Shown here: positions 19,837-39,777 of the stretch, piece by piece
Numbering within the stretch: the first letter of the stretch is position 1
How the letters are laid out: the number at the start of each line of letters is the position of its first letter
Assembly (NCBI GenBank): GCA_030652115.1
Contig: JAUSBK010000008.1
Coordinates: 62,001-126,000, forward strand
DNA length: 64,000 bases
DNA from: Coriobacteriia bacterium
Lineage (GTDB): Bacteria > Actinomycetota > Coriobacteriia > Anaerosomatales > Anaerosomataceae
Reading direction: 5' to 3'
Position numbers and translations under genes: made by a program
Notes under the pieces: model-generated
What the model was told of the DNA's origin: nothing
Seen by the model: the letters and a program-made list of their open reading frames with translations, nothing else
The model's database searches: none

Positions 19837-19846
19837 GGGGACGTTC

Positions 19847-20482: not shown

Positions 20483-20517
20483 TCCGAGAGCCCGATCTGC
20501 GGGGATTGGAGTCATGG

Positions 20518-22576: not shown

Positions 22577-23680
22577 GTGCCGTTCAGGCGGGGGCTGTTC
22601 ATAACATGCGTGCTCGTCGCGGTCGTCGCGATCACGGCCCCAGCATTCGCCTATGACGAGGTCACCAGTGGCAAGAGCTGCATCGAGTGCCACGGCGTAG
22701 CTAACCCCGCATCAGGCAACGAGTCCTTCGGCCCGCATAGCGGGTACCTCACCACCACCAACAAGTGCGCCGCCTGTCACACCGTGCACAACGCACCGGC
22801 GGGCGGCATCCTGCTCCTGCCGGCGGCGACCATCAAGGGAACGTGCGAGACCTGCCACGATGGGACTGCAGGCGGCGGGGTGTACGGGGTCCTCGCCGCG
22901 CGGGTTCCGGCCGTGACCGTTGCTGCCGCGCACGACATAGACCAGACCAACCTCGTGCCGGGCGGTGGGTCGGACGGGGGTTCGGCAACGCCCACCTTCT
23001 CGGGCGCCAGTGGCAACCTTACCTGCACCGACTGCCACGCACCGCACAGCGCGAGCGTGGTCGACCCGTTCACCGGCGATCGGGCGCGATCCTCGGCGTA
23101 CATGGCACTCGGCCCGACGGTGGTCTCTTCGCGCCTGCTCAAGCAGCGTCCCACTTCGATACCTGTCGCTGCGGCCAACGTCACCAAGTACGGCTCGGAC
23201 TGGTGCGGCGCATGTCACGTGGGCAGGCTCTCCGGCTCAGGGATGCCGAACAACCATCCGGTCGAGTCCACGGTGAACCCGCCGGACAGCGGTTTGGCCG
23301 ATCTCTTCTACTACGAGCGCATCGCGCGTGTCACCGGCGTGGGCGTAGGTACGACTGAGATCGCGACACTCGGCAAGAACAACGGCGGCTACGTGATGCC
23401 CGATCCGCGCACTGCGCATCAGAACGGTCATGACCCGATCTGTCAGCAGTGTCACGAGGACGCTCGCAGCGTCGGCAACGACACGGTCAACTTCCCGCAG
23501 CGCCTCGACACCAGTCCCTCGGAGGCATTCACGCTTACAGCGGTGGACGGTCTCACGACGACCGACAACCCGCGCTTCCAGACGTTCCCGCACGAGTCGC
23601 GGATCGCGAGCTTCCTGGTCGAGGACGGCACGACCGACGGTTTCTGCCTGAACTGCCATAGCCTGGCAATGCTTCCATAG
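22577..23680 (+). CDS. Secreted heptaheme c-type cytochrome
   Basis: A 367-residue exported protein with a clear signal peptide (about residues 1-25, ending APAFA). Seven CxxCH heme-binding motifs are present: CIECH, CAACH, CETCH, CTDCH, CGACH, CQQCH and CLNCH. CTDCHAPHSA resembles the doubled CXXCH family, in which a second His or PH follows the motif. No membrane anchor is seen after the signal peptide, so the protein should be free outside the membrane or bound to a partner. GTG 22577 follows GGGGGT at 22565-22570. No catalytic family (nitrite or sulfite reductase) was recognised; an electron carrier is the simplest reading. Confidence 0.88.
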   Translation: MPFRRGLFITCVLVAVVAITAPAFAYDEVTSGKSCIECHGVANPASGNESFGPHSGYLTTTNKCAACHTVHNAPAGGILLLPAATIKGTCETCHDGTAGGGVYGVLAARVPAVTVAAAHDIDQTNLVPGGGSDGGSATPTFSGASGNLTCTDCHAPHSASVVDPFTGDRARSSAYMALGPTVVSSRLLKQRPTSIPVAAANVTKYGSDWCGACHVGRLSGSGMPNNHPVESTVNPPDSGLADLFYYERIARVTGVGVGTTEIATLGKNNGGYVMPDPRTAHQNGHDPICQQCHEDARSVGNDTVNFPQRLDTSPSEAFTLTAVDGLTTTDNPRFQTFPHESRIASFLVEDGTTDGFCLNCHSLAMLP

Positions 23681-23873
23681 CGTGATGACCAACTGACAAA
23701 GGGGACCTGCAGGCCCATGCGCCCATCGATGCTCTCAGGCCACGTTGAGGGGCATGGCGCATGTGCCGATACACTCTGTGGAGCGTGTCGGCTGGATGTT
23801 AGACTGAACGTGAAGCGGGGGTCGGTCGCGGTTGCGCGGTTCGGCGCCCTGCTCGTGCGGGCGGGGAGGTTCA
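23681..23873. other. Intergenic region with possible promoter
   Basis: These 193 bp between two cytochrome genes contain no gene that I can support. TAGACT at 23800-23805, preceded by ATGT, is a candidate -10 box about 70 bp before the next start. Short frames across the region have no recognisable similarity. Confidence 0.4.
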
Positions 23874-25349: not shown

Positions 25350-25350
25350 T

Positions 25351-26346
25351 ATGCCGGACGACATCGCAGTGAAGACCGAGCCCGAACTGCTTTCCCGCCG
25401 ATGGCTCCCGAAGATCCTGATCGCCGCCGGGGTCCTTCTGCTGCTGGCGGCCGCGATCATGGTAGGGGTGTCGCTGGCCGAGGATCCGTTCGCGGATCTT
25501 CCCGACGACCCGGCGGTCACTGTGAACCTTGCCGGTACGCTGCCGGCCGAGGGGGCGGCGCCGCTCGAGAACCCGGTCGGCATCGTGATGAGCCGTAATC
25601 GCATCTTCGTCGCCGATTCCGGCGCGGGCGTGATCCGGGTCTTCGACCGGTACGGTCGCGACAAAGGCAGCATCGTGCTTCCCGCAATCGATGGCGCGGA
25701 CAGCCGGCCCTCGGCGATCGCGCTCGCGGACAACGGCCGCATCGCGGTGGTCGACAGCGGTTTGGGTCAGGTCGTCGTGATCGCCGCCAAACCTGCCGAG
25801 GAGGCGGACGTGCTGTTCGCGCTAGGCGATGCCACGGAAGGAACCGCTCCCGTGCGGCCGGTCGCCGTGGCGTACGCGGATGATGAGTACTACGTCCTTG
25901 GAAGCGCGGAGACCAAGATCCGCGTCTACGACAGCACGGGCGAGCCGGTGCGTGAGGTCGACGTGCAGGCAGATCCTGCGGTCGAGTACCCGGGCGGTCT
26001 ACTGGCAACTGATGGGACGATCCTTCTCAGCGATACCAAGAGCGGTCGCGTCGCGGTGTTCGATGCCGAGACAGGAGAGGCCGTCGGTGCATGGCCCGAC
26101 ACGTACACGGTGCCGCGGGGGCTCACGCAGGTTGACGACGGGTTCGCCATCGCCGACGTACTCGGCCAGGCAGTGTATGTGTGCGACGCTGAGGGCGTCC
26201 AGACGCATGTAGTGAACGGCGAGACCCTTCCGGACGCAAGACTGGCGCTACCCGAGGGCGTCACATGGGACGCAGCCAAGTCGAGGCTCTACGTGACCGA
26301 CTCGGCGGCGGGCGTCGTGAACGTGTTCAACGTACGCGTTGAGTGA
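25351..26346 (+). CDS. NHL-repeat beta-propeller protein, single membrane anchor
   Basis: A 331-residue protein that starts one base after the cytochrome stop. One membrane helix lies at about residues 18-43 (ILIAAGVLLLLAAAIMVGVS), followed by a propeller of NHL-like repeats (VGIVMSRNRIFVADSGAGV, SAIALADNGRIAVVDSGLG, GGLLATDGTILLSDTKSGR, EGVTWDAAKSRLYVTDSAA). It resembles the protein at 21249 in architecture but is shorter and lacks the long acidic N terminus. It probably forms an operon with the preceding membrane-anchored cytochrome and sits beside it on the outer face of the membrane. Function unknown; scaffold or partner-binding role inferred. Confidence 0.78.
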   Translation: MPDDIAVKTEPELLSRRWLPKILIAAGVLLLLAAAIMVGVSLAEDPFADLPDDPAVTVNLAGTLPAEGAAPLENPVGIVMSRNRIFVADSGAGVIRVFDRYGRDKGSIVLPAIDGADSRPSAIALADNGRIAVVDSGLGQVVVIAAKPAEEADVLFALGDATEGTAPVRPVAVAYADDEYYVLGSAETKIRVYDSTGEPVREVDVQADPAVEYPGGLLATDGTILLSDTKSGRVAVFDAETGEAVGAWPDTYTVPRGLTQVDDGFAIADVLGQAVYVCDAEGVQTHVVNGETLPDARLALPEGVTWDAAKSRLYVTDSAAGVVNVFNVRVE

Positions 26347-26418: not shown

Positions 26419-29400
26419 ATGAAGCTTATGCAGAGGCGGAAATTGAGTACTTCACGCACATACACGACCACCGGTCGTGACATCCGGAACCAGGCGCACC
26501 GTGCCTGGCTGTTGGTGCTCTGCGCGGTCTTCGTCGCGACGCTGTTTGCAGTGCCCTCATCCGCCCTTGCCGCGACCGCGCACGCCGACACCGGTGTGAA
26601 CCCCGACTGCGATGCGTGCCACAAGCCGCATCAGGCGCCAACCGAGCGCAGTCTCCTCGCGGATGTGACCGAGTCCGAGGTGTGCTACGTCTGCCACGGC
26701 GCCACTCCGGGGGGCTCGAAGTGGAACGTCGAGACTTGGTCGGCCAACTCGTTTGCCGCTGGCATGTCGAGCGGTCACACGCTCCAGGACGTCACCGACC
26801 CTGATACGACCATGGATCTCACCAACTCCTGCACCGGCTGTCATGGCGTGCACGGCGACCCGGGCCTGCGGGCGAACCTGCCTGCCAACGAGGAGGTGGC
26901 CGGCGTCACGATCGACCCGGCGGATCCCCGCAGCTGGTGCCTTGCGTGCCACAACGCGGATCACGCGTGGTACGCGGGCTCCGAGACAGCCGGGGTGTTC
27001 ACAGTGGACGCCGGACTGAAGGCGGCATACGAGGCGAAGATCCAGGATCCCGATCGAGGCACGCATCAGTATCCGACGCTCGGGACGTTCCCGGGAAGCA
27101 CGTCGAACGCGACGTACCTGGCGAGTACGCACGCCACAGGGATCGACTCGGGCACGGTCGAGAGCCTCGTTTCTGTGCCCACGGAGACCGTGACGCGCGT
27201 GCAGGGCGACTGCCTATGGTGCCATGCGTCGCATCGCAGCACTGCCACGCACGACGGGTTGCTCGGCGAGTACCGCGCCACGACGCCTGCTGATGCGGCG
27301 GGCGGCGCTACGGCTGGGGAATACGCCCAGGCTTGCTTCGAGTGTCACGGCAACAGCAGCGGTGCGGTCTACCTGCCTGCGGCGACGTACACGGACAGCT
27401 ACTGGCAAACGACCGTGGGCGCGCCGGACATCCACACGCTCGTGACGGACTCGAGCAGCACGCGTTCCGGTCACCGCATCCGTACCACCAGTGCGTACTA
27501 CGCCCCGGACTCGCCGCTGCCCTGCTACGAGTGCCACAACCCGCATGGGTCGAAGAACGGCAACACGCTGATGATCTCCGACGCACTGGGCGGCAACTTG
27601 CAGCCCGATGGTACGGCAGCGCAAGTCCGCCAGTTCTGCTTCAGCTGCCACACCACCGGCGATGCCACGCCTGCTGGCTGGGACAGCGACGCCAACAACA
27701 ATGGCACGCACGATGACGGCGTCTACACCACCACGCTGGCGAACACCGCGGTCGGGGCCACCGCGATCGGCATCAGCCGCACGGCGGCGCCTCCGACGAG
27801 TTATCTGCGCCTCACAACCAGCTCGTACCACCTACAAGCGAGCGCCCTCGACTGTCTCACCTGTCACGCCAGCGCGCATCGGCCGACCGGCGGTGTGTCC
27901 GAGGGCGGACTCGCCTGCTACGGTTGCCACCGCAGCGACACGACGAGCCTCGACTACGAGAAGAACATGGAGTACGACGGCACGAGCAAGACGAGCAACT
28001 ACCATCACGTGATGGGCACGGCGAGCACGTCGGGCGACAGCGCCTTCACGTCTTCGACCTATCCAGCCGCCGGGACCGACGTCTACTGCCTGAGCTGTCA
28101 CGTCGATCACGACCAGTTCAACTCGAGTAAGTCCTCGAGCCTGCGGAGTTCGATCGGCTCCACGCCCTCGGGTGCGACCGCCTCGAGCACCGACTTCAAC
28201 ACCACCTCGGGTGGCGTCTGCCTCGGCTGCCACTACGTGAGCCGAACGAAGGGCGCGGACCAGAAGAGCGACTCAACCTCCGTGACCCCCGCGATCCCGT
28301 TCACTTCGGCGTCCGCGATCGTGGCGGGAGCAGTCTACGACCGTTCGCCGCACCAGTACCAGGTTGCGGGCCGGCTGCGTAATGACGACACCTCGTTCAG
28401 CGGCGACTGTTCGAAGTGCCATAGCGACCGCCTGAGCGGCACGTACTACAAGACCGCGGCCACAGGACCGGAGTTCGGGCTTCACTACGATCCCTCACGA
28501 CGGATCCTCGAGGCGCTCGGGCGCGGGTCGGTTGCCGATCCGTACGCCGAGGAGCGGTTCTGCTACAGCTGCCACGCGCCGACGGGTGCAGGCTTCAAGG
28601 CGACCGCCGGCGCCGACTGGTACGGGACCTCCGGCGTGATGGATGCAGCCTCCGAGAACGTGTACACACAACTGACTGCGTACGCCTCGAAGCACACTAT
28701 GACGCTGTCGAGCTCGGCGCACCGACCGACATCGACCGACGAGGTGACGAGCAATCGGCTTTCGACGGCCGAGCATGTCGAGTGCGCCGATTGCCACAAC
28801 CCGCACGCAGCGGACGATGTCAACCATACGCCGCGGGTCTCCGGCAACAACATCGCCGCAACCTCGCCGATCTACGGCGTCTGGGGTGTACAGCCGCCCG
28901 CTTCGGCGAACTGGGCGGAGCCAACGGTCACGGGTTACACGATTCAGCCCGTTGCGGCCAAGGAGTATCAGGTCTGCCTCAAGTGCCACTCCGGATTCAA
29001 CTCGTCGTATAGCGCGGCGACACGCACGTTCAGCTGGGGCTCAGCCACAGGCTGGACGAACCAGGCGTTCGAGTTCAACACCGCGAATCAGTCGTACCAC
29101 CCGGTGATGGGTGTGGCACGGTATCCGCTGCCGGCCTCGACCCTGCTGGCCCCCTGGAATGTGGCGCCCGGCAATCAGACGATGTACTGCACCGACTGTC
29201 ATATGGACGATGCGGCGACGCCTCTGGCGCAGGGTCCCCATGGGTCGGCGAATGCCTGGATACTGAGGGGCACCTGGAACCCGACGGTCGACACGATCAC
29301 AAGCACAAGTGGCTCGACGACGTTCCTGTGCCGGAAGTGCCACGTGATCACGAACACCCACTCCGCGCACATGACGCTCGGGAGGCATCAGAACAAGCCT

Positions 29401-29613
29401 TGCGCGAACTGCCACATCACCGTGCCACATGGCGGCAAGGTCCCCCGGCTCCTTGCTACCTCGTCGATGGCGGGCATGGATCTCCGCTACAGCGGCGGAA
29501 GCGTCTTGCTGCATAGCTTCACCTATCCGATCAATGGCATTCAAACCAACTGTCAGTCTGGAGTGGGATGCAACCCCGGCGTGCATGGCGGCGCTCAGCC
29601 CACCAAGTGGTAG
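26419..29613 (+). CDS. Secreted 19-heme c-type cytochrome, cassette copy A
   Basis: A 1064-residue exported protein with a long signal peptide (hydrophobic core at about residues 30-50, ending SSALAA). Nineteen CxxCH motifs are spread along the whole chain, from CDACHKPH at the N terminus to CANCHITVPHGG near the end. Many are followed by a nearby PH or VH as distal ligand. The last 22 residues carry a Cys pair in a CX5C spacing without a following His, so not a heme site. The first eight motifs are very similar to the paralogue at 32329; the rest has diverged. No membrane anchor, sorting signal or S-layer domain was recognised. It begins a cassette with ResB, CcsA and a lipoprotein. Likely a long-distance electron conductor outside the membrane. 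Confidence 0.88.
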   Translation: MKLMQRRKLSTSRTYTTTGRDIRNQAHRAWLLVLCAVFVATLFAVPSSALAATAHADTGVNPDCDACHKPHQAPTERSLLADVTESEVCYVCHGATPGGSKWNVETWSANSFAAGMSSGHTLQDVTDPDTTMDLTNSCTGCHGVHGDPGLRANLPANEEVAGVTIDPADPRSWCLACHNADHAWYAGSETAGVFTVDAGLKAAYEAKIQDPDRGTHQYPTLGTFPGSTSNATYLASTHATGIDSGTVESLVSVPTETVTRVQGDCLWCHASHRSTATHDGLLGEYRATTPADAAGGATAGEYAQACFECHGNSSGAVYLPAATYTDSYWQTTVGAPDIHTLVTDSSSTRSGHRIRTTSAYYAPDSPLPCYECHNPHGSKNGNTLMISDALGGNLQPDGTAAQVRQFCFSCHTTGDATPAGWDSDANNNGTHDDGVYTTTLANTAVGATAIGISRTAAPPTSYLRLTTSSYHLQASALDCLTCHASAHRPTGGVSEGGLACYGCHRSDTTSLDYEKNMEYDGTSKTSNYHHVMGTASTSGDSAFTSSTYPAAGTDVYCLSCHVDHDQFNSSKSSSLRSSIGSTPSGATASSTDFNTTSGGVCLGCHYVSRTKGADQKSDSTSVTPAIPFTSASAIVAGAVYDRSPHQYQVAGRLRNDDTSFSGDCSKCHSDRLSGTYYKTAATGPEFGLHYDPSRRILEALGRGSVADPYAEERFCYSCHAPTGAGFKATAGADWYGTSGVMDAASENVYTQLTAYASKHTMTLSSSAHRPTSTDEVTSNRLSTAEHVECADCHNPHAADDVNHTPRVSGNNIAATSPIYGVWGVQPPASANWAEPTVTGYTIQPVAAKEYQVCLKCHSGFNSSYSAATRTFSWGSATGWTNQAFEFNTANQSYHPVMGVARYPLPASTLLAPWNVAPGNQTMYCTDCHMDDAATPLAQGPHGSANAWILRGTWNPTVDTITSTSGSTTFLCRKCHVITNTHSAHMTLGRHQNKPCANCHITVPHGGKVPRLLATSSMAGMDLRYSGGSVLLHSFTYPINGIQTNCQSGVGCNPGVHGGAQPTKW

Positions 29614-29616
29614 CGG

Positions 29617-30867
29617 ATGGCACTGCGCAAGCGTCGATGGCGGTTCGATACGCTGGCTGTCAGGATGCTGCCGGCCCTCACCATCGGACTGCTCGCGGTC
29701 GCCCTCGTCCTCTCGTTCGCGCTTCCCGGCGGCTCCTACACGATGGAGAGCGGCGGTAGTACCGCCGGCGGGGCGCTTCGGGTCCTGGTACTCGGGATGC
29801 TGTCACTCGCGGCTCTGCTGATCGCAGTCGTGCTGCCTCGCATGATGCGCCGGGCCGTTGGCCGCTATCGGCACTCGGATCCGCCGCACCTGAGCGGCAC
29901 GGAGTCAGCCATCAGCGTGGACGCCGTTGGTTCACTGCGGCGCCTGGGCTGGACGGTTGCTGCTGAAGGGCCAGACGCGGTGCGGCTTGCGAAGCACCGA
30001 TGGTCCGTCTGGTCCCCGCTACTGCTGCACATCGGCCTCGTGGTCGTGCTTGCATCCGCCTTCCTCGCGTTTGCTTCTGAGTCGCGTGGTGTGCTCGTCT
30101 TGCACGAAGGTGAGCAGATACTCGCCGGCACTTCGCTCCAAGGCGCGGTTGTCGGGGTGCTCGGCTCCGAGCCTGTGCTGCCCGGGACGATCCTCGGTGG
30201 TGCTGTCACTCCGGCCTACTGGCCCCAGGGCGGCACGCGGCAGCTCACGGCAGAGCACGTCGATGTTGAGACCGGAGAGCCGGTCGTGCTCGAGGTGAAC
30301 CGGATAACGCGATGGCGGGGTGTGAGGCTCTTCCCGAGCCAGACCTGGGGGCGCGTCTACTACGTGCGTTTCGATGGGGCGGAGTTGTCCGAGCAGGTAC
30401 TCCAAATCGATGTCCCGGCGGGTGCCGGTCTGGGCGAGGCCGGATATCGCGACCTCGACCTCGGGCAGTCGCCGTACGACGTACGATTGAAGGCGATCGA
30501 GAACGTGTCTGCGGAGGGCGCGGTTCAGCCCACTTTGGTGCTGCGCCTTGAGGAAGACGGCGAGGTAGCCGCGCAGGAGGAACTGAGTCTTCTCACCACG
30601 GCCACGGTCGGACCGTACGCTGTAAGCCTGCTGAGTGCGGATGAGACCTGGCAGGAGATCTTCGTGGTAAGACAGACTGGTGTTGGCACTCTCATGGTGG
30701 GCATAGTGCTCGTGGTGGTCGGCTCGGTGGCACTCTACTTGTTCCCGCCCGCGGACGTATGGGTCGTCAAGGATGGCGACGTAGATCGTCTCGTCGTCCG
30801 CGCGGGCAAGCTCGGCCAGACTGGCGTCGCGGATCAGATCGCACGAGCGATGGAGGCTCACGAGTGA
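29617..30867 (+). CDS. resB: ResB/Ccs1-like cytochrome c biogenesis protein (copy A)
   Basis: System II heme-lyase subunit of 416 residues, 3 bp after the cytochrome gene. The N terminus has two membrane helices (ALTIGLLAVALVLSFALP and VLVLGMLSLAALLIAVVLP) and a third follows at SVWSPLLLHIGLVVVLASAF, where SPLLLHIG matches the ResB core with its conserved His. A large extracytoplasmic domain and a final membrane helix (GIVLVVVGSVALYLF) complete the known topology. With CcsA it delivers heme to apocytochromes and keeps their cysteines reduced. It overlaps the ccsA gene by one base. A second ResB is encoded at 35844, in the other cassette. Confidence 0.87.
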   Translation: MALRKRRWRFDTLAVRMLPALTIGLLAVALVLSFALPGGSYTMESGGSTAGGALRVLVLGMLSLAALLIAVVLPRMMRRAVGRYRHSDPPHLSGTESAISVDAVGSLRRLGWTVAAEGPDAVRLAKHRWSVWSPLLLHIGLVVVLASAFLAFASESRGVLVLHEGEQILAGTSLQGAVVGVLGSEPVLPGTILGGAVTPAYWPQGGTRQLTAEHVDVETGEPVVLEVNRITRWRGVRLFPSQTWGRVYYVRFDGAELSEQVLQIDVPAGAGLGEAGYRDLDLGQSPYDVRLKAIENVSAEGAVQPTLVLRLEEDGEVAAQEELSLLTTATVGPYAVSLLSADETWQEIFVVRQTGVGTLMVGIVLVVVGSVALYLFPPADVWVVKDGDVDRLVVRAGKLGQTGVADQIARAMEAHE

Positions 30868-31694
30868 TGGACGCTCAGGTGCTGCTGTCGGCGGACCCAC
30901 GGCTCCACGTGGTGTCGCTCGTCCTCTATGCGATCGGGGCTGCGCTCGCTGTCACGGGTGCGGTGCTCCGACGCGAGCGTCTCGCCGAACTGGCGCGGTG
31001 GTCTGCCGTTGGCGGGCTCGTGGTGCAGGGCCTCGGACTCCTTGCGCGCTGGATCGGTTCGGGTCACGGGCCGTACGTCTCGCGCTACGAACTGCTGTCC
31101 GCGTACGCATGGGTGTCTGTGCTGATCTGGCTGGTGTGGTCTGCGCGGGACCGTCGGCTGCGTGACTTCGGACTCGTCGTGCTTCCTGTGGCGCTTCTCC
31201 TGATCGGCGTCGGTCTGTACACCGGGCCGGAGGTTCGGGTTCTTCCGGCAACGTTTGCAGGCATATGGCTAGTCCTTCACGTCTCCTTCTACTTCATCGC
31301 GTTCGCGACCGGGCTCACGGCCTTCGGCGCTTCGTTGTTCTATCTCGTGCCGGAGTCCAAGCTCGCCGGCACCCGCCTTCCGAAGCGCCCGGAGCTCGAT
31401 TCGATCGCTTACCGCGCGGCGGGGCTGGCGTTCGCCTTCTGGGGAGTCGGGCTGCTCACCGGTGCGATCTGGGCGTACTACTCGTGGGGCCGCTTCTGGG
31501 GCTGGGACCCGGTGGAGACGTGGTCGCTCATCACGTGGCTGCTGTACGGACTGTACCTGCACCTGCGTCGCTTCTACGGTTGGAAGGACCGGCGGGCGGC
31601 CCTTCTGCTCATACTGTGCTACGGACTCGCTTTGCTGTCGCTCTTCGGCACTGCGTTGTTCACCTCGACGGTGCACTCGGAGTACTTCTCATGA
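30867..31694 (+). CDS. ccsA: CcsA/ResC-like cytochrome c assembly protein (copy A)
   Basis: Polytopic membrane protein of 275 residues with about eight helices. The tryptophan-rich WWD-type domain is intact (WGRFWGWDPVETWSLITW), and His residues suited to heme binding flank it (GSGHGPYVSRYE, VLHVSFYF, LHLRRFYG, and the C-terminal HSEYFS). It exports and presents heme for attachment to CxxCH motifs, working with ResB. The start ATG shares its A with the resB stop. Its own stop overlaps the lipoprotein start (ATGA). The copy in the second cassette has exactly the same length, which supports a cassette duplication. Confidence 0.93.
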   Translation: MDAQVLLSADPRLHVVSLVLYAIGAALAVTGAVLRRERLAELARWSAVGGLVVQGLGLLARWIGSGHGPYVSRYELLSAYAWVSVLIWLVWSARDRRLRDFGLVVLPVALLLIGVGLYTGPEVRVLPATFAGIWLVLHVSFYFIAFATGLTAFGASLFYLVPESKLAGTRLPKRPELDSIAYRAAGLAFAFWGVGLLTGAIWAYYSWGRFWGWDPVETWSLITWLLYGLYLHLRRFYGWKDRRAALLLILCYGLALLSLFGTALFTSTVHSEYFS

Positions 31695-32179
31695 GGCATA
31701 CATCCGCACTCGCCCTCATCGCACTCGCGCTCGCTGTGGTCGTCGGCTGCAGCCCGGTGGTGTCAGACGCCGACGTCGTCGCGGTAGAACACGCAGTGCG
31801 CGCTTACAACGAAGCGCTGATCAAGGGCTTCGTGAGCTTCGACATGAACGCACTCAACCTGACAGCCACCGAGGAACAGGCACAGAGGGACTACTACCTG
31901 ATGGCTGCCCTCGGCGAAGGCCGGGTGCAGATGTTCTCGACCTTGCAGTCGATCGAGTTCGGCGAGGTGACGTTCCCCGGAGAGGGGAAGGCGAGCGTCA
32001 CCACGACCGAGACCTGGGACTACGAGCACGTCTCCCTCGATACAAGCGAGACGGTGCGGACCGAGACGGGGGTCGTCTACCACCTGCAATATGATCTCGT
32101 GCTGCAGGACGGGCGATGGCTCGTGGCGGGCGTGACCTCGCTTGACGAGACCACCGAAAGTCAGGAGACCACGCAGTAG
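31691..32179 (+). CDS. Small lipoprotein, cassette copy A
   Basis: A 162-residue protein with a lipoprotein signal: hydrophobic segment LALIALALAVVVGC, with Cys20 as the lipidation site. The mature part begins with a helix (AVRAYNEALIKG) and ends in beta strands with the motif LQDGRWLVAGVTSLDE, a layout like small NTF2-fold or IMS-domain proteins. It is related to the lipoprotein at 39253 (shared AVR-Y, ETW-Y and WLV-AV positions) and shares the DGRWLV ending with the one at 38028. It is coupled to ccsA by a 4-base overlap. Role unknown; a membrane-tethered chaperone or adaptor for the cytochrome or its maturation complex is plausible by context. Confidence 0.75.
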   Translation: MRHTSALALIALALAVVVGCSPVVSDADVVAVEHAVRAYNEALIKGFVSFDMNALNLTATEEQAQRDYYLMAALGEGRVQMFSTLQSIEFGEVTFPGEGKASVTTTETWDYEHVSLDTSETVRTETGVVYHLQYDLVLQDGRWLVAGVTSLDETTESQETTQ

Positions 32180-32205
32180 CCGCCCTGCGGCCGTGCCGTT
32201 CATCG

Positions 32206-32254
32206 GCACATGCGACCGATGAGCGTGAGGCACCGCGCCATCGGTCGCATGTGC
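32206..32254. repeat. 16-bp perfect inverted repeat between the two cassettes
   Basis: GCACATGCGACCGATG (32206-32221) and its exact complement (32239-32254) are separated by 17 bases. The hairpin follows the first cassette by 26 bp and ends 22 bp before the next -10 box. There is no T-run after it, so it may be a factor-assisted terminator, an mRNA-stabilising end, or an operator over the -35 region of the second cassette. Confidence 0.8.
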
Positions 32255-32276
32255 GTGGCGCGCGCCAGTACCCTGC

Positions 32277-32282
32277 TATACT
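32277..32282 (+). promoter_or_regulatory. Extended -10 promoter of second cassette
   Basis: TGCTATACT gives a TGn-extended -10 box (TATACT) 46 bp before the cytochrome start at 32329. The -35 position has no consensus match, as is common for extended -10 promoters. Confidence 0.55.
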
Positions 32283-32328
32283 GAATTCGTATTAAAGTCG
32301 TGGCTGGCACAGCGGCGGGGAGCCGGGT

Positions 32329-35300
32329 GTGATGGCGCGAACACGCGGCGGGTTCAGGGGGCGAGTGACGATCGCGGTAGCATGGGCTGCCATAGGAGCA
32401 GGTCCCCTCACGACCCGGGGCTGGGCGGAGCGCATCCGTACCCCCGGGGGTTCGACAGTTCTTGCACTCGCATTCATCGGCATCGTGCTACTTTCCGCGA
32501 TGGTCCCGTCCCAGGCCGCGGCCGCAACCGCCCACGCTGATGCCGATACCTCCGCTACGGCAGACTGCTTCCAGTGCCACAAGCCGCACACGGCTCCCAC
32601 GAAGCGGAGCCTGCTCGCCGATGTGGACGAGTCGGAGGTCTGCTACGTCTGTCACGGTGACCTCGGCGGATCGAGCTGGAATGTAGAGACCTCGGCTGCG
32701 AACTCCTTCGGCGTCGGCATGCAAAGCGGTCATGTGCTCGAGGACGTGACCGATCCGGATGCCCGGATGGACCTCACCAACTCGTGCACGGGCTGTCACG
32801 GCGTTCACGGCGACCCCGACGTGCGGGCGAACCTGCCCGCCAACGAGGAGGTGGCCGGAGCCACCATCGACCCGGCGGACCCGCGCACCTGGTGCCTCAC
32901 GTGTCACAACGTCGATCACGCGTGGTACGCGGGCTCTGAAACAGCCGGGGTGTTCACCGTCGACGCCGGACTGAAGGCTGCCTACGAGGCGCTCATCCAG
33001 GACCCGACGCGCGATACGAGCAACTACCCGACGCTCGGCACGTTCCCGGGCTCCGCCGGCAACACGACATACCTCGCAAGCACGCACGCCACTGGCATCG
33101 ATGCCGGCACCGTGGAGAGCCTGGTCTCCGTGCCTACCGAGACCGTCAGTCGGGTGCAGGGCGACTGCCTCTGGTGCCACGCGTCGCACAAGAGCACAGC
33201 CACCTATGACGGGCTGCTTGGCGAGTATCGTGCCGCGACGGCCGATGACGCGGCGGGTGGTACCGCGGCCGGAGAGTACGCCCAGGCGTGCTTCGAGTGC
33301 CACGGCAACAGCAGCGGCACGGTGTACAAGCCCGCGGCCACCTACACTGATACCTACTGGCAGACCACAGCAGGCGCGCCGGACGTACACACCCTCGTGA
33401 TGGAGGGCGGTGCTAGTTCGGGGCACAGGATCCTGACAGACGGCGCCTTCTACGAGGCAGGATCGCCGCTGCCATGCTACGAGTGCCACAACCCGCACGG
33501 GTCGGGCCGAGGCAATTCCTCGCTCTTCTCGGACACGCTCGGTGCCAGTCTCGACGCGTCGACCGCCGAGGGCGTGAGGCGCTTCTGCTTCACGTGTCAC
33601 ACGACGTACGACACCGAACCGGTGACTGGCAGGCCGTACGGCTGGGACAGCACCACCGCTTCGTATGCGCCGGTGGCGGCCGATGCCGAGGTGGTGGGTC
33701 TGTCGCGCACTGCGAGCGCCGCCAGCGAAGAGAATCGGCTGCGTCTGTGGCAGGTCAGTACCGGGCACGACCATGATGATGCCCAGGACTGTCTGGCCGC
33801 CTGTCATGGCGACGTACACGCACCGATGGGGTCGCCCGTTGGTGCGACCAACTGCTTCGATAGTTCGTGCCACAGCGCGCTCCACGGGATGGTCGACGAC
33901 ACCACCTCGTACCACCACGTACTCAACTCGGCCACTCCCGACCAGCCTCCGGCTGACGGGGTGTACCCGGTGTTCTCTGAGACCACGCAGGAGCTTTCAT
34001 GCGTGAGCTGCCATATGGATCACACCGCATGGGAGGGGCCGGGGAACGCGTACAACCTGCGAAACAGCGGCCTGGTGGACAATCCGACTGCCAGCAACAC
34101 CGATGAGGATCTGTGCCTGAGCTGCCACTCTTACACACTCTCGTACCGGATCTACCGCTCGGCCGATGGAACCAACCCGACTCCGGATGGCCAGGCTGAC
34201 AACGCGCTGTACTCGACAGCGGTGATGCGTGTAGAGGACGAGTACTGGGCGGCATCCCCCCACAACTACCCGGCGAACACGTACTTCGCGGACAGCTCGC
34301 AGTTCGTGGGCAACTGCGCCAAGTGCCACGGCACCCTCGAACCCGGGCAGTACACCGAGACGCTGCCGTATTCGTTCACCGTGCACTACTCACCTGAGCA
34401 GCGACTGCTGAATGCGCTCGGCCAGGATAGAACGAGCCTCGCGGCGCCGCAGACTGCGGCGATCAACGAGGAGGACATGTGCTTCCGTTGCCACAGCAAC
34501 TCGACCGATAAGCTGGGCGCGAGCGACCACGACTACTACGGTACGCAGCCGATGAGCACGGCGAATCGCGCGATAGGCGAGCAGATGGATCCTGCGAACA
34601 ACGTGTTCGGCCACAAGCCGGCGACGTACTACAAGGAGCACCTGATCTCGTCCATTGACGAGCCGCAGGCCTACCTCAGCGCGAACAAACATGTCGAGTG
34701 TGCTGACTGCCACAACCATCACATCGTGGGCAAGTCGCGACACGTATACGGAACCGACAACCGGGTGTCCGACGCGATCCAGGGTGTGCGAGGCATCGGG
34801 TTCGCACCAGGGAAGCTCGTGAGTCTGGCGTTGTTGAACTACCCGAGCACGATCAACTACGTCGATGAGCTCGAGTACAAGCAGTGGGCCACCTACGAGT
34901 ACGAGGTCTGCTTCAAGTGCCACTCGAGTGCGAACACGAACCTCGCGAGTTGGGGCGGGGACATGGTGTGGGACTACTGGAACGGCTCGGCGTGGGCCGT
35001 GGGCACGAACCCCGCCGTGGATAACTGGACGAACGTGGCGCAGGACTTCAACGTGGGCAACAACTCGCGGCACCCGGTGTTCGCCACACTGTCCGGCTCC
35101 TACTATGCGACGACCGACGCGACGACGATGACCTTCATCAGTGGGTACGCAGACGTGCTCAGTCGCGGCACGAGCGACCTCGAGGCCGGCCAGGTGTCAA
35201 ACGGCTGGGAGCCAGACTCCACGATGGTGTGCTCGGACTGTCACGGCGATTCCGACGCGCCGATCGCGATGGTCTGGAACGGAACGGATTGGGTCCCCAA

Positions 35301-35787
35301 CGAGCCCGCTGTTCTTGCCGTTCCCCAGGGCCCACACGGTTCCTCTGTGCGTTTCTCCCTGCGTGGTCCGGCGACCGACTGGCCGACGAGGTCGGACAAC
35401 GGCGCTCTGATCCGGCTCGTCGATCTGAGTGACGCTAACTACAACGGTCTGTTCTGTGCGAACTGCCATCCCAAGGCGCGCATCACGACCAACCGGGCGC
35501 ACTCCGCGGCGACAGGGCTGGACAAGCATGGCGGACAGGCGTGCATCTACTGCCACACGCTCGTCCCTCACGGTGGAAAGGTGTCCCGTCTGATCGGTGA
35601 CCATGAGACGATGCCGGCACGGCTGGCCTACCAGGGCGATCTCAACTACATGAAGATGTCGAGTTACATCAAAGGGGCGAGCACCAAGAACACCTGTTCA
35701 GTGGTCGCAGGAAGCAGCTGCGACACGCATGCCTCGGGGCACAGCACCACGGGGAACCAGACCGGCGGCAGCTGGGAGAACTGGTAG
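32329..35787 (+). CDS. Secreted multiheme cytochrome, cassette copy B (17 CxxCH, one CX3CH, one CX4CH)
   Basis: A 1152-residue exported protein, paralogue of the one at 26419. A long basic N terminus precedes the signal core (VLALAFIGIVLLSAMVPS) and the cleavage region AAAATAHA. Nineteen heme-type motifs are in the same order as in copy A. Motifs 9 and 10, however, are CLAACH (33790-33807) and CFDSSCH (33853-33873), where copy A has CLTCH and CYGCH. Motifs 1-8 are nearly the same in both copies; after motif 8 the sequences drift and copy B has extra loops, explaining its greater length. The end carries a non-heme CX7C pair followed by a Gly/Ser-rich tail. GGGGAG at 32317-32322 serves GTG 32329 or ATG 32332. 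Confidence 0.88.
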   Translation: MMARTRGGFRGRVTIAVAWAAIGAGPLTTRGWAERIRTPGGSTVLALAFIGIVLLSAMVPSQAAAATAHADADTSATADCFQCHKPHTAPTKRSLLADVDESEVCYVCHGDLGGSSWNVETSAANSFGVGMQSGHVLEDVTDPDARMDLTNSCTGCHGVHGDPDVRANLPANEEVAGATIDPADPRTWCLTCHNVDHAWYAGSETAGVFTVDAGLKAAYEALIQDPTRDTSNYPTLGTFPGSAGNTTYLASTHATGIDAGTVESLVSVPTETVSRVQGDCLWCHASHKSTATYDGLLGEYRAATADDAAGGTAAGEYAQACFECHGNSSGTVYKPAATYTDTYWQTTAGAPDVHTLVMEGGASSGHRILTDGAFYEAGSPLPCYECHNPHGSGRGNSSLFSDTLGASLDASTAEGVRRFCFTCHTTYDTEPVTGRPYGWDSTTASYAPVAADAEVVGLSRTASAASEENRLRLWQVSTGHDHDDAQDCLAACHGDVHAPMGSPVGATNCFDSSCHSALHGMVDDTTSYHHVLNSATPDQPPADGVYPVFSETTQELSCVSCHMDHTAWEGPGNAYNLRNSGLVDNPTASNTDEDLCLSCHSYTLSYRIYRSADGTNPTPDGQADNALYSTAVMRVEDEYWAASPHNYPANTYFADSSQFVGNCAKCHGTLEPGQYTETLPYSFTVHYSPEQRLLNALGQDRTSLAAPQTAAINEEDMCFRCHSNSTDKLGASDHDYYGTQPMSTANRAIGEQMDPANNVFGHKPATYYKEHLISSIDEPQAYLSANKHVECADCHNHHIVGKSRHVYGTDNRVSDAIQGVRGIGFAPGKLVSLALLNYPSTINYVDELEYKQWATYEYEVCFKCHSSANTNLASWGGDMVWDYWNGSAWAVGTNPAVDNWTNVAQDFNVGNNSRHPVFATLSGSYYATTDATTMTFISGYADVLSRGTSDLEAGQVSNGWEPDSTMVCSDCHGDSDAPIAMVWNGTDWVPNEPAVLAVPQGPHGSSVRFSLRGPATDWPTRSDNGALIRLVDLSDANYNGLFCANCHPKARITTNRAHSAATGLDKHGGQACIYCHTLVPHGGKVSRLIGDHETMPARLAYQGDLNYMKMSSYIKGASTKNTCSVVAGSSCDTHASGHSTTGNQTGGSWENW

Positions 35788-35831
35788 CGTCGGCCCTGGT
35801 GCCGCGGCCGATCGCTGCGCCGCCGCTTTGC

Positions 35832-35837
35832 TACCAT
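35832..35837 (+). promoter_or_regulatory. -10 box just before the second resB
   Basis: TGCTACCAT gives a TGn-extended TACCAT hexamer that ends only 6 bases before ATG 35844. If used, the message would be leaderless, which fits the absence of a ribosome-binding site there. Confidence 0.4.
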
Positions 35838-35843
35838 CACGAC

Positions 35844-37133
35844 ATGCGCCGCTTCCTCGACATGCTCACCTCCCGCCGTACGTCGATCGCGCTCATGGCG
35901 TTCATCGCGGTCTGCGGCGCGCTCGGCGCCTGGATCCCGCAGTCATCGAGCAGCACTGCTGAGATCGTCGCGTCCTGGGAAGCACGCAACCCCGCGGTCG
36001 CCGGCATCGCCGACGCGCTCGGCCTTCGCGAGATCTTCTCGTCGTGGTGGTTCGTCACCGTTCTCGCGGTCTTCGCGGCCGCGCTGACGGTTGCGACGCT
36101 GCGCATGTTCTCCTCGGCGGCGCAACGCCGGGACGCTGTTGCCAGGAAGCCTCGCACGGAGATTTCCGGTGCGGCGATCGAGCGGGTCGCCGAACGCGCG
36201 CGTGCGACGGGCTTTCGCGAGCAGCGCCGGGCGGGATCCACCCGTGTCTTCGTCCGCCACGGCATGGGACTCTGGGCGCCCGCAATCCTGCACGTCGGTC
36301 TGCTCGTGGCGCTCGTGTCGGGGGGCATCGCACTCGCACTCACCCGGAGCGCGATCGCCGACTTCTCGCAAGGCGAGATCCGAATGCCTGGTGACGACTA
36401 CTACGCGGTCGAGGATCCGGCCGATGCGCCCGAGGTCGGTGTGCCGCTGCGCTTCGATGGAATGAAGGTCGAGAACTGGCCGCAGGGCGGGCTCAAGGAG
36501 GTCGTCGCCACGCTCTCGGTTCTCGATGGCACGGAGGATTGGACGCCCCGAACGGTGAGCATCAACCACCCGCTCCGACTCCGCGGGCATACGATCTACG
36601 CACAGCCCGGGGAGTTCGGCGATGCGGCATTCCTCGTCTTCACTGCCGAGGATGGCACTGAGTACCCCGTGCGCATGGAGTTTGTCTACGCCGAGGCGGG
36701 CGAGGTCGTCTACACCGCGGAGCCGCTCACGATCGGTGGCGTCGCGCTCGAGGGACGGTGGGACCCGCACGGCGTCCGAGGTCCTGTGCCGCTTGCCCTT
36801 CGCCTCGCCGGCGACGACGCTGTCGAGCCTGTCACGCTCGCCGAGGGTGAGACCGCAACGGTTGCGGGACTCGAGGTGGAGTATTCATTCACCGGTCAGT
36901 GGGCGCGCTTCATCATCCAGAAGGAGCCAGGCATCTTGGCACTGCTTCTGGGCTTTGCCGTGATCGGTGCAGGCTCGATAATGCTCTACGCTTGGATTCC
37001 TCGTGTGCTGGTCGTCGAGGAGACTGCCGAGGGAGTCTGCTATTCCTGGTACGCCGCCCGTATGCCGGGCTCGTATCTGCCGGAGTTGGCCGAGATGCTC
37101 GGGGCGAACCTGCGGCAGGGAGAGGATGCGTGA
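35844..37133 (+). CDS. resB: ResB/Ccs1-like cytochrome c biogenesis protein (copy B)
   Basis: A 429-residue System II heme-lyase subunit. Membrane helices are seen at about residues 12-29 (SIALMAFIAVCGALGAWIP, the usual ResB opening), 60-80 and 140-165 (GLWAPAILHVGLLVALVSGGI with the conserved His), and at the end (GILALLLGFAVIGAGSIMLYAW). The extracytoplasmic domain keeps WPQGGLKEVVATLSVLD, matching WPQGGTRQLTAEHVDVE of copy A. The start is uncertain: ATG 35844 gives a normal ResB N terminus but lacks a ribosome-binding site; a GTG at 35799 would add 15 non-conserved residues. It overlaps its CcsA partner by one base, as in cassette A. Confidence 0.88.
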   Translation: MRRFLDMLTSRRTSIALMAFIAVCGALGAWIPQSSSSTAEIVASWEARNPAVAGIADALGLREIFSSWWFVTVLAVFAAALTVATLRMFSSAAQRRDAVARKPRTEISGAAIERVAERARATGFREQRRAGSTRVFVRHGMGLWAPAILHVGLLVALVSGGIALALTRSAIADFSQGEIRMPGDDYYAVEDPADAPEVGVPLRFDGMKVENWPQGGLKEVVATLSVLDGTEDWTPRTVSINHPLRLRGHTIYAQPGEFGDAAFLVFTAEDGTEYPVRMEFVYAEAGEVVYTAEPLTIGGVALEGRWDPHGVRGPVPLALRLAGDDAVEPVTLAEGETATVAGLEVEYSFTGQWARFIIQKEPGILALLLGFAVIGAGSIMLYAWIPRVLVVEETAEGVCYSWYAARMPGSYLPELAEMLGANLRQGEDA

Positions 37134-37960
37134 TGCAAGAGGCGTTGGCTACCGAGGTCGTGCTGCACATCGTCGCGCTCGTCGCCTACGCGATCGCTAC
37201 CGCTTTCGTGCTCTTCGGCACGACCATGGCGAAGCCCGGGCTCGTGCGTGCGGCTCACGCCGTCGCGCTTGTGGGACTCGCGGTCCATTCGACGGCTCTC
37301 GGCCTGCGGTGGTACGGGGCAGGGCACGGGCCCTACCTTACGCGCTACGAGGTGCTCTCCTCCAACGCCTGGGTTGCGATGTCGCTTCTCCAGCTGGTGG
37401 GCTGGCGCCAGCCCAAGAGCCGTAGTCTTGCAGTCGTGCTCTATCCGGCGGTGCTGCTGCTCCTTGGACTGGCGGTCTACACGGGTCCGGAGGTGCAACT
37501 CCTGCCGCTCACATTCCGCGGCATCTGGCTTGTGCTTCATGTCTGCTTCTACTTCGTCGCATTCTCGGCAGCGCTCGTCTCACTCGGCTATGGAGTGCTG
37601 CAACTCGGTCGGGGGACTGCACTCGCAGGGCGCATGCCCGGTCTGCCCGAGCCGTCCGAACTCGACCGGGAGTCGTATCGGTTCGCGGGGTTGACCTTCG
37701 CGTTCTGGGGCATCGGGATGCTGACGGGCGCGATCTGGGCGTACTACTCCTGGGGACGGTTCTGGGGCTGGGACCCGATAGAGACCTGGTCGCTGGTGAC
37801 CTGGTTCGTGTACGGCATCTACCTGCACGCGCGTCGGTTCTACGGACTCAAGGGACGTCGGGCGACGTTGCTGCTGCTCGCCGGATTCGGTCTCGCCGTC
37901 GTCTCGCTCTTCTTCACGTCGTTCCTCACCACCTCACTCCACTCGGAGTACTTCCACTAG
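37133..37960 (+). CDS. ccsA: CcsA/ResC-like cytochrome c assembly protein (copy B)
   Basis: A 275-residue polytopic protein, the same length as its copy A counterpart. The WWD-type segment WGRFWGWDPIETWSLVTW is intact and differs from copy A at two positions only. Candidate heme ligands are in GAGHGPYLTRYE, VLHVCFYF, LHARRFYG and the final HSEYFH. Two full ResB-CcsA pairs in one locus imply either high demand for heme attachment or specialisation, for example toward the CX3CH and CX4CH sites of cytochrome B. Specialisation is my inference; nothing in the sequence proves it. Confidence 0.93.
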   Translation: MQEALATEVVLHIVALVAYAIATAFVLFGTTMAKPGLVRAAHAVALVGLAVHSTALGLRWYGAGHGPYLTRYEVLSSNAWVAMSLLQLVGWRQPKSRSLAVVLYPAVLLLLGLAVYTGPEVQLLPLTFRGIWLVLHVCFYFVAFSAALVSLGYGVLQLGRGTALAGRMPGLPEPSELDRESYRFAGLTFAFWGIGMLTGAIWAYYSWGRFWGWDPIETWSLVTWFVYGIYLHARRFYGLKGRRATLLLLAGFGLAVVSLFFTSFLTTSLHSEYFH

Positions 37961-37977
37961 CAGGCGGCCCATGCCGC

Positions 37978-37983
37978 TATGAT
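37978..37983 (+). promoter_or_regulatory. -10 box before second cassette lipoprotein
   Basis: TATGAT in the 67 bp gap after ccsA, 45 bp before GTG 38028. The lipoprotein may thus have its own promoter, unlike in cassette A where it overlaps ccsA. Confidence 0.4.
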
Positions 37984-38027
37984 TACGCAAGTCCGAAGGA
38001 ACCTGCCTGCGAGGGAAAGGGCGCCCC

Positions 38028-38459
38028 GTGCGTCGTGTCATGCATCCGAAGTGGCTCATCGCGGCAGGACTCGTCCTTCTCCTCGGCTGTGCTTCCCCGG
38101 CAGCTCATCCCGCCATTACTCGCATCTCGGACCTCCTCGAACTCCGCCGCGACGACGTTCGTGACCCTGCGGCCTACGAGGAGTACTTCGCGGACCCCGA
38201 TCTGGCGGCGGAGCTGGCCTCGGGCAGCAAAGAGCCGACCGGCACGCCCCAGGTTCCCGATTACGAGCCACCCTACCTCACCGCCGAGACCACCTCGACC
38301 GCTGACGTCGCCGTGGTCTGGAAGGCGAGCGATGAGTTCACCGGCTGGCCGGCGGTGACCGTCTTCATCCTGTCGCTTGACGATGGCCGCTGGCTGGTGG
38401 TCGACGCCCTCGATGCCACCTCGGCACCGGAGCCGTTCGAGCCCGCTGCAACCGACTAG
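38028..38459 (+). CDS. Small lipoprotein, cassette copy B
   Basis: A 143-residue protein with a lipobox at LVLLLGC (Cys about residue 21). The mature part is acidic and ends with ILSLDDGRWLVVDALDATS, the same ending type as the lipoproteins at 31691 (DGRWLVAGVTSLDE) and 39253 (GWLVDAVEATS). The middle part is short and hard to align, so homology to the other two is likely only over the last third. GTG 38028 follows GGGAAAGGG at 38012-38020; an in-frame ATG at 38040 is possible. It occupies the same position in cassette B as the copy A lipoprotein. Function unknown. Confidence 0.68.
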   Translation: MRRVMHPKWLIAAGLVLLLGCASPAAHPAITRISDLLELRRDDVRDPAAYEEYFADPDLAAELASGSKEPTGTPQVPDYEPPYLTAETTSTADVAVVWKASDEFTGWPAVTVFILSLDDGRWLVVDALDATSAPEPFEPAATD

Positions 38460-38529
38460 AGTCCGTTAGCCGATAGCGGTCTTCCGGTCGCGCCCACAGC
38501 CCGCACACGATGCGTTGTGCCGAATTCCG

Positions 38530-38558
38530 TTCGACAAATCCCAAAGTCGCGGTACCAT
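38530..38558 (+). promoter_or_regulatory. Promoter of the Rex-like gene
   Basis: TTCGAC at 38530-38535 and TACCAT at 38553-38558 are separated by 17 bp, giving a start point near 38565 and a leader of about 28 bases that includes the ribosome-binding site GGAGG (38583-38587). Confidence 0.5.
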
Positions 38559-38592
38559 TATCGCAATGCGGCTGCTCTCAACGGAGGACACC

Positions 38593-39249
38593 ATGTCGGA
38601 CGAGCGCACGGCACCCGACGCAAGCCTGTACCGCCTGTCGCTCTACCACTGCTATCTCGGCGAACTCATCCGCACGGGAGCACCGCAGCGGATCACCTCG
38701 CGGCAGCTGGCCGACGAGCTCAACATCAAGGAGGAGACCGTCCGCCGCGACATCTCCTTCGTTGGCGACATCGGCCGTCCGGGTGCCGGCTACGCGCCCG
38801 AGGTGCTCTTTGCGGCGCTCATGGATTTTCTGGGGCTGTCCGACGAGTACCCGATCCTCGCGGTCGGCAGCCTCAAGATGCTCGACACGCTGCAGGTGAT
38901 CTTCCCGCCCGAGCGGTTCGGCGTGCGGGTGGCCGCCTGCTTCTCCGAAGTACCGGAGGACCCCGGTGCCGAGGTGATGGGCGTCACCCTGCAACACCTC
39001 ACCGACATCCCCCGGCTTGATCCCGCCCTGGGCATCACCGTCGCGTTCGTCGCATGCTCGCCCGGCTGGGTTCAAATCACCCTCGACCTGCTGGCGACCG
39101 CCGGCATTCGGGGCGTGCTGCTGCTCACCTCGGCGATCAAGCTCAACCGGCCCGAAGGCATGATCATCACCCAGGTGCGCATGCCCTGCGACCTCAAGAG
39201 CCTTGCGTGCCGTTGCCAGACGCGTACGGGCTCTGTCGGGACCCGGTGA
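38593..39249 (+). CDS. Rex-family protein without the NAD(H)-binding glycine motif
   Basis: A 218-residue homologue of Rex. The winged helix is well kept (ITSRQLADELNIKEETVRRD, then SFVGDIGRPGAGY), and the C-terminal half still aligns with Rex (AGIRGVLLLTSAIKLNRPEG matches AGIRGVLNLAPVRLTVPDD). The nucleotide loop is gone: the GYGRFG of Rex is replaced by VGSLKML at residues 91-97, and the ribose-binding Asp by Phe-Ser in ACFSEVP. Instead there is a C-terminal cysteine group, Cys199, Cys206 and Cys208. It should bind DNA but probably not NADH in the usual way; thiol, metal or heme sensing is possible. ATG 38593 has GGAGG 5 bases upstream. Confidence 0.78.
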   Translation: MSDERTAPDASLYRLSLYHCYLGELIRTGAPQRITSRQLADELNIKEETVRRDISFVGDIGRPGAGYAPEVLFAALMDFLGLSDEYPILAVGSLKMLDTLQVIFPPERFGVRVAACFSEVPEDPGAEVMGVTLQHLTDIPRLDPALGITVAFVACSPGWVQITLDLLATAGIRGVLLLTSAIKLNRPEGMIITQVRMPCDLKSLACRCQTRTGSVGTR

Positions 39250-39252
39250 GCG

Positions 39253-39777
39253 ATGGGCCACGCCCGTCCGATGCCGCTCGCTCTCATCGTGCTTGGGGTC
39301 GCGATGCTGCTCGCGTTCGCGGTGACCGGCTGTGACGGCACCGAGCCGCTCGGCACCGTGGGGGACGCCGTCGAGCCCGCGCCGTGGGATCTCTCCACCC
39401 CCGAGCTCGCCGTCCGTTCGTACCTGGACTGGGTGAGCTTCTCGTACCGCATGGCCAACTCGGAAATCCCCACCGCCACCATGACGCCCGAGGAGGCTGT
39501 GCGGGTCGACTCCTACATCCAGCTCAACCGCATGGACGGCAAGGGGCTGGAGCAGTTCCTGACCTCGCTCGAGATCACGTTCGCGTCGCAGGAGGCGTCG
39601 ACCGCGGTCGTGACGGCTCACGAAACCTGGCGGTACCGCTACTTCTCGCTCGAGACGCTGGAGTATCTGACCGAGGAGTACATGGCGAGCTACGACACCA
39701 CCTACACGCTTGTGGCACAACCGCAGGGGTGGCTGGTCGACGCGGTCGAAGCGACCTCCAACGAGGAGGTCAAGTAG
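39253..39777 (+). CDS. Small lipoprotein
   Basis: A 174-residue protein with a lipobox ending AFAVTGC. The mature part has an N-terminal helix (ELAVRSYLDWVSFSYRMA) and beta strands with HETWRYRYFSLE and QGWLVDAVEATS. It is clearly related to the lipoprotein at 31691, where ETWDYEHVSLD and GRWLVAGVTSLDE occupy the same places. It lies 3 bp after the Rex-like gene, so the two are co-transcribed. That the third family member travels with a candidate redox regulator, not with a cytochrome, suggests that the lipoprotein may have a sensing or signalling part in the system. This last point is speculation. Confidence 0.7.
   Translation: MGHARPMPLALIVLGVAMLLAFAVTGCDGTEPLGTVGDAVEPAPWDLSTPELAVRSYLDWVSFSYRMANSEIPTATMTPEEAVRVDSYIQLNRMDGKGLEQFLTSLEITFASQEASTAVVTAHETWRYRYFSLETLEYLTEEYMASYDTTYTLVAQPQGWLVDAVEATSNEEVK

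Follow-up and report, generated by a model that had tools for sequence, protein, structure and literature searches.

Two diverged cytochrome-ResB-CcsA-lipoprotein cassettes in a Coriobacteriia bacterium and a lipoprotein family linked to heme-attachment genes in two phyla

In the heme-attachment pathway known as System II, the ResB-CcsA pair moves heme out, and the heme is bonded to cysteines of the apocytochrome, which has itself been exported, as the pertinent part of PMC12285233 describes it, and substrate-specific CcsA proteins, NrfI and CcsA1 of Wolinella, have been shown experimentally in work cited there. According to the relevant passage of Aklujkar 2009 (PMC2700814), Geobacter has four ResB and ResC pairs, every one of them accompanied by multiheme cytochromes, and each pair may be dedicated to the cytochromes near it. 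Passages of Khomyakova 2022 (PMC9686372) describe, in Parvivirga hydrogeniphila, a cluster (MCL4079323-32) that encodes multiheme cytochromes together with biogenesis proteins and Rex, with related clusters in Anaerosoma. Here we describe a locus of a Coriobacteriia bacterium (assembly GCA_030652115.1, contig JAUSBK010000008.1), an actinobacterium related to iron-respiring species, where two consecutive cassettes, A and B, each encode a large multiheme cytochrome, ResB, CcsA and a lipoprotein. The window is the whole 64,000-nucleotide stretch analysed, and coordinates without a locus name are positions in it; G and L numbers are our handles for genomes and loci. Giant cytochromes of this kind probably underlie mineral respiration in subsurface actinomycetes, and how tens of hemes are loaded onto one long protein outside the membrane is an open question. 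The preliminary description of the locus knew of no described system with this design, a claim that falls to the Geobacter and Parvivirga precedents as those passages give them: the dedicated-synthase design was already published, and it is the lipoprotein linkage that is apparently new.

Cassette genes and their recurrence

The genes of the two cassettes are the following:

26419..29613, + strand: cassette A cytochrome, 1064 residues; 19 CXXCH; MtrC/MtrF domain (PF22113, 7.8e-24)
29617..30867, + strand: cassette A ResB, divergent; PF05140 31.6 bits (cut-off 24.6); invariant membrane His138
30867..31694, + strand: cassette A CcsA, 275 residues; PF01578 126 bits; WWD and His67/138/232/270 invariant
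31691..32179, + strand: cassette A LipA, NTF2-like lipoprotein, 162 residues; lipobox VVVGC; predicted model with a local distance difference test score (pLDDT) of 85
32329..35787, + strand: cassette B cytochrome, 1152 residues (start uncertain); 17 CXXCH, one CX3CH and one CX4CH
about 35844..37133, + strand: cassette B ResB; PF05140 91.5 bits; invariant membrane His150
37133..37960, + strand: cassette B CcsA, 275 residues; PF01578 107.7 bits; WWD and four histidines
38028..38459, + strand: LipB, a lipoprotein of a family other than LipA, by alignment and synteny

With small coordinate corrections, the order cytochrome-resB-ccsA-lipoprotein does occur twice, CcsA is 275 residues long in each cassette, and resB and ccsA share one base in each, all as first reported. 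The order of the cassette genes is far beyond chance because it is found again at over 20 loci in the Anaerosomatales, the order to which this bacterium belongs, and the cytochromes of related genomes are not scattered away from resB-ccsA, the families standing together in those loci. Both cytochromes also carry 19 heme-type sites in the same order; that all of these are CXXCH proved right for cytochrome A only, since cytochrome B has CLAACH (CX3CH) at ordinal position 9 and CFDSSCH (CX4CH) at position 10.

The cassette cytochrome family was found in 50 of the 69 Anaerosomatales genomes, and in the fetched loci its full-length members are nearly always followed by resB, ccsA, and lipA and/or lipB, the exceptions being distant or fragmentary relatives and G035, which has lipA but lacks a resB immediately behind the cytochrome. 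Most genomes have a single cassette, and two consecutive ones, in both cases A and then B, are found only in the Coriobacteriia genome and in G013. The order is cyt-resB-ccsA-lipA-lipB in A-type loci and cyt-resB-ccsA-lipB in B-only loci, and either an ancestral A-then-B array that lost one unit or insertion of B between lipA and lipB would explain these layouts. LipB, which follows lipA in single-cassette A-type loci, is a separate and conserved lipoprotein family (its model, built from two sequences only, has a pLDDT of 39).

Each cassette encodes a ResB and CcsA pair scoring above the PF05140 and PF01578 cut-offs, and the membrane histidine is invariant in 24 of 24 ResB proteins, as are the WWD motif and the heme-ligand-type histidines in 23 of 23 CcsA proteins; this conservation supports the view that they are functional System II synthases. 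Against the canonical CcsB/CcsA equivalog TIGR03144 (cut-off 187.6), CcsA A reaches 160.1 and CcsA B 144.4 bits, both below the cut-off, so that by profile score they would be classed as divergent members.

Most likely, with a probability of about 0.6, a cassette is an operon-like unit in which a large secreted multiheme cytochrome comes with its own ResB, its own CcsA and a lipoprotein, this being LipA in cassette A. In the mechanism that we propose, the apocytochrome would be exported unfolded, ResB-CcsA would pass heme outward via the membrane histidines and present it at the WWD/histidine site, and heme would be attached to all 19 sites of the cytochrome, with thiol reduction supplied from elsewhere, as the DsbD/CcdA-type genes present in the genome would allow. 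LipA, anchored to the outer face of the same membrane, would be a partner of the synthase and most likely hold the long apocytochrome or dock it there, a step proposed from gene linkage and the modelled fold. The finished cytochrome would then serve an electron route including 7- and 14-heme cytochromes and NHL-repeat proteins encoded in the same cluster.

Proposed dedication of the synthases and proposed role of LipA

In the preliminary description each cytochrome seemed to carry its own dedicated copy of ResB-CcsA. The genes do stay together, and the dedicated role is plausible because the genome (2.38 Mb in 14 contigs) also has System I and, next to another large cytochrome, a third pair of ResB and CcsA. 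The third pair lies on contig C7 (L015 3964-12028), preceded by a LipA-like gene and accompanied by a 15-heme cytochrome that has a DUF5648 domain, and its CcsA scores 181.8 bits with TIGR03144. The System I genes, for CcmE, a CcmF/NrfE-like protein, CcmA, CcmB and CcmC, are on the same contig as the window and upstream of it (L016 734-18819), in the neighbourhood of a 13-heme cytochrome that carries FG-GAP repeats. This genome thus has both System I and System II, and we count it in favour of dedicated ResB-CcsA pairs that System I is available for other cytochromes.

Further evidence comes from the co-variation of distances over 17 cassettes, with 2000 permutations. ResB and CcsA co-vary strongly (r 0.91, 0/2000 permutations), and the C-terminal half of the cytochrome co-varies with ResB (r 0.81) and with CcsA (r 0.74), as opposed to the N-terminal part (r 0.10 and 0.12, respectively); the distances of the flanking rex gene are not followed by the C-terminal half, ResB or CcsA. 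Several observations weigh against a dedicated, lipoprotein-assisted unit. Within the A-type cassettes alone, only the ResB-CcsA link is clear (r 0.57-0.58), and the correlation of the cytochrome C-terminal half with ResB is weak (r 0.17, 256/2000); the gene region of that half physically adjoins resB, and the shared history may reflect linkage in recombination rather than co-adaptation. In addition, a LipA-family member is missing from the 3 kb around 30 of 100 ResB matches, of which some lie at contig ends, and B-only loci lack lipA in that place and have lipB instead, with LipC, a LipA paralogue, after the second Rex gene; LipA is therefore not obligatory in B-only loci.

The alternative that ResB-CcsA is an ordinary, non-specific System II, kept adjacent for matched expression while any pair or System I loads any cytochrome, seems to us possible although rather improbable. 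It agrees with the standard CXXCH sites of cytochrome A, which leave no unconventional motif of the NrfI/CcsA1 type as the target of that cassette's synthase, and with the fact that the CXXCH-only B-type cassettes (G003, G005, G012 and G013) share their CcsA type with the CX3CH/CX4CH members, so that no motif-specific need is visible; the passage of Aklujkar 2009 (PMC2700814) also speaks of efficient expression. On the other side, three ResB-CcsA pairs plus System I in a 2.4 Mb genome exceed any obvious bulk need, and the A and B synthases remain distinct across genera. A need for the atypical motifs was also considered as the explanation of the B synthase and was rejected, with CX3CH/CX4CH present in only 3 of the 7 B-type cytochromes.

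As for LipA, its linkage to the synthase genes was surveyed by a whole-genome search of the order that was independent of the cytochrome. Of the 83 family members, 71 lie no more than 3 kb from a resB gene of the same orientation, where about 0.26 would be expected; lipA is upstream of resB in 49 of these 71 and downstream in 22. In the Desulfuromonadota, a LipA-led survey covered a family reached through a Geomesophilobacter locus, where 21 of 48 genomes have LipA members: the first five loci, from three genomes, are all cyt-resB-ccsA-lipA, and nearly all of 18 further LipA-led loci have resB and/or ccsA beside lipA, mostly with a multiheme cytochrome. Only 14 of 396 Actinomycetota genomes gave a LipA match. 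Three strong matches within the phylum lie outside the order; two are cyt-resB-ccsA-lipA, and in the third the arrangement is different, with ccsA and resB at a distance of 2-4 kb. The weak matches in other Actinomycetota (E about 5e-9 to 2e-12, frames of 248-741 residues) had no resB or ccsA in the fetched stretches and were taken as other NTF2-like proteins. Within a limited literature search, no title or abstract reported, in connection with multiheme cytochromes, that ResB/CcsA has a partner that is NTF2-like or a lipoprotein, and the linkage of LipA to resB/ccsA across two phyla appears to be new.

The LipA model is NTF2-like, with helices followed by a curved four-stranded sheet. It is nearest to the IMS domains of ARC6 and PARC6 (Foldseek E 3e-7; Z 16.7, the next group reaching about 12.6), aligning with that of ARC6 over 128 residues at 2.6 Å and about 16% identity, and some of the matched IMS structures were solved in complex with a protein partner. 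Weak profile matches are to YvbJ, TcaA and ARC6-like NTF2 domains. We propose that LipA acts as an accessory factor for System II synthases dedicated to giant cytochromes. The fuller proposal, that in both phyla LipA-type lipoproteins are a hitherto undescribed third component of those System II synthases that specialise in giant multiheme cytochromes, and that they may recognise the cytochrome C-terminal tail, is a tentative one to which we give less than even odds. If true, it would add a conserved heme-attachment component in Actinomycetota and Desulfuromonadota that is directly testable and could aid the laboratory production of such proteins.

The tail in question comprises the C-terminal 60 residues of cytochromes A and B (29430-29613 and 35600-35787) and of their relatives in two phyla, with the pattern PHGG..RL..D...PARY...C..(n)..C..H....W, that is, two cysteines outside CXXCH, one histidine and a terminal tryptophan. 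The two cysteines might pair as a disulfide, or the tail might hold an unusual heme site or serve for recognition. The terminal-tryptophan tail is present in 32 of 48 cytochromes adjoining resB, ccsA or lipA vs. 5 of 75 others; as a mark of cassette cytochromes it is a lead at most, given that shared descent confounds the comparison.

A possible although rather improbable alternative is that LipA serves the working place of the cytochrome and not its making, anchoring the finished protein to the membrane or wall or docking it to the 14-heme partner. A lipoprotein encoded together with a cytochrome would suit such a role, NTF2-like domains are common protein-binding modules, and in the Desulfuromonadota locus L145 lipA stands beside a 40-heme cytochrome with no resB detected. 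What argues for the synthase instead is that the linkage to resB is near-universal and on either side of the pair, and that L136, L143 and L144 are lipA-resB-ccsA with no cytochrome in view.

Origin of the two cassettes

Sequence comparison points to the two cassettes being versions, old and diverged, of a single module at one locus. The two ResB proteins are 24% identical by BLAST local alignment and 20% in the multiple alignment, CcsA A and B are 51% identical, and the lipoproteins A and B, once considered as duplicates of each other, were rejected as such, being different families by sequence and synteny whose genes adjoin in single-cassette genomes. The trees of ResB and of CcsA both unite the B types, which come from seven genomes with five genus codes, in a single fully supported clade and group cassette A of the Coriobacteriia genome with G014, and the tree of the cytochrome C-terminal half (hemes 9-19) has the same A/B split. 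The tree of the N-terminal 8-heme part differs, with A and B of the Coriobacteriia genome as sisters (97/91). Sliding identity between cytochromes A and B is 78-88% from about residue 76 to 375, falling to 48% in the following window and to 28-39% from there on; in cytochrome A the 8-heme part extends to about residue 400, and the 11-heme C-terminal part is A-type.

Because the N-terminal parts are alike (about 80%) and the C-terminal halves, ResB and CcsA split into A and B, the pattern indicates that the cytochrome N-terminal domain was exchanged between cassettes by later gene conversion. Third-position identity in the similar part is only about 40-72%, so low that an assembly artefact or a very recent exchange seems unlikely. 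A second case is seen between L085 10573-13641 (G013) and L070 8553-11750 (G014), whose cytochromes are 82-97% identical in the N-terminal parts and 28-64% in most of the C-terminal half. Neither the A-type nor the B-type group tracks the flanking genes well, with few taxa and low power, and this suggests that whole cassettes may have been swapped at a fixed locus.

The idea of a tandem duplication as a single event, with which the locus was first described, cannot be maintained: a recent duplication of the four-gene cassette in this genome is very improbable, for the repeated gene order and the sister N-terminal parts that speak for it are outweighed by the ResB and CcsA divergence, by the fully supported B clade of ResB, CcsA and cytochrome C-terminal halves, and by lipA and lipB being different families side by side in single-cassette loci.

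Surroundings and comparison with described systems

The other genes of the cluster are the following:

19748..20482, + strand: Rex redox-sensing repressor; NCBIfam equivalog NF003992 264.5 bits (cut-off 226)
20506..21252, + strand: TPR protein (Pfam TPR); position kept in related loci
21126..22499 (frame start uncertain), + strand: NHL-repeat beta-propeller protein 1; Pfam NHL 1.2e-25
22577..23680, + strand: 7-heme cytochrome, weakly NapC/NirT-like; 7 CXXCH; PF03264 24.2 bits (cut-off 24.1)
23832..25349, + strand: 14-heme cytochrome, DmsE/GSU2203-like (MtrA-type); 14 CXXCH; TIGR03508 172 bits (below the cut-off of 192.2)
25189..26346 (true start probably beyond 25349), + strand: NHL-repeat protein 2; Pfam NHL 4.7e-11
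38515..39249, + strand: Rex-like regulator 2; NF003995 97.5 bits (below the cut-off of 126); conserved position
39253..39777, + strand: LipC, the LipA paralogue, by family search

The first Rex gene is the left border of the cluster and keeps its position in related loci, and the second follows the lipoprotein genes on every contig that is long enough to include it. Downstream, on the LipC side, UbiE and a B12/radical-SAM protein are encoded. The two Rex-type regulators bracket the cluster, the second being divergent and below the Rex cut-offs, and the cluster is probably under Rex (NADH/NAD+) control. A search for Rex operators in the window with up to 3 mismatches found none, and a promoter and terminator scan gave no more than in shuffles. 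In most related loci the NHL genes are found at the same positions relative to the cytochrome genes, that of protein 2 immediately 5' of the cassette cytochrome, and NHL genes also lie beside 10-11-heme cytochromes in Desulfuromonas and Planctomycetota loci (L054-L065).

Cytochrome A matches the PF22113 MtrC/MtrF domain II/IV profile with 84.6 bits (cut-off 30), cytochrome B has no match to it at 0.001, and a PDB sequence search with both found none. An extracellular electron transfer role is plausible and fits because of this domain match and the 7- and 14-heme neighbours. The suggestion that the module may be self-contained is not supported: no thiol-reducing partner gene of the CcdA type is in the cassettes, DsbD/CcdA-type matches being elsewhere in the genome, and besides the cassettes the cluster includes NHL proteins, Rex and the cytochromes with 7 and 14 hemes. 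Cytochrome A also has giant relatives, in frames of 4118 to 5121 residues with 61-75 or more CXXCH, at L081 5044-19998 and L163 (G012, contig 25), L082 3626-17713 (G008) and L092 4093-16446 (G060). They are apparently repeats of the region matching residues 217-760 of cytochrome A, and CcsA, in G012 together with ResB, is encoded downstream of them.

Compared with known proteins, LipA resembles the ARC6/PARC6 IMS domain in fold and differs from it in its lipoprotein context, and we know of no link of that domain to cytochromes. Wolinella likewise has several CcsBA synthases per genome (NrfI, CcsA1 and CcsA2), each for particular cytochromes; its NrfI and CcsA1 serve CXXCK and CX15CH, whereas the cassette cytochromes have CXXCH sites, to which only some B-type members add CX3CH/CX4CH, and ResB and CcsA are separate proteins in the Anaerosomatales cassettes. 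The Parvivirga cluster, compared here by its description rather than its sequence, has ten genes and so probably one cassette, and the lipoproteins and the two-cassette layout do not come up in the passages of PMC9686372 concerned. The closest likeness in design is with Geobacter, where several ResB and ResC/HemX pairs per genome stand beside multiheme cytochromes and are proposed to be dedicated to them, in a passage of PMC2700814 that makes no mention of a LipA-type lipoprotein; in contrast to Geobacter, the locus described here has System I in the same genome, two cassettes at one locus and an actinomycete as its host.

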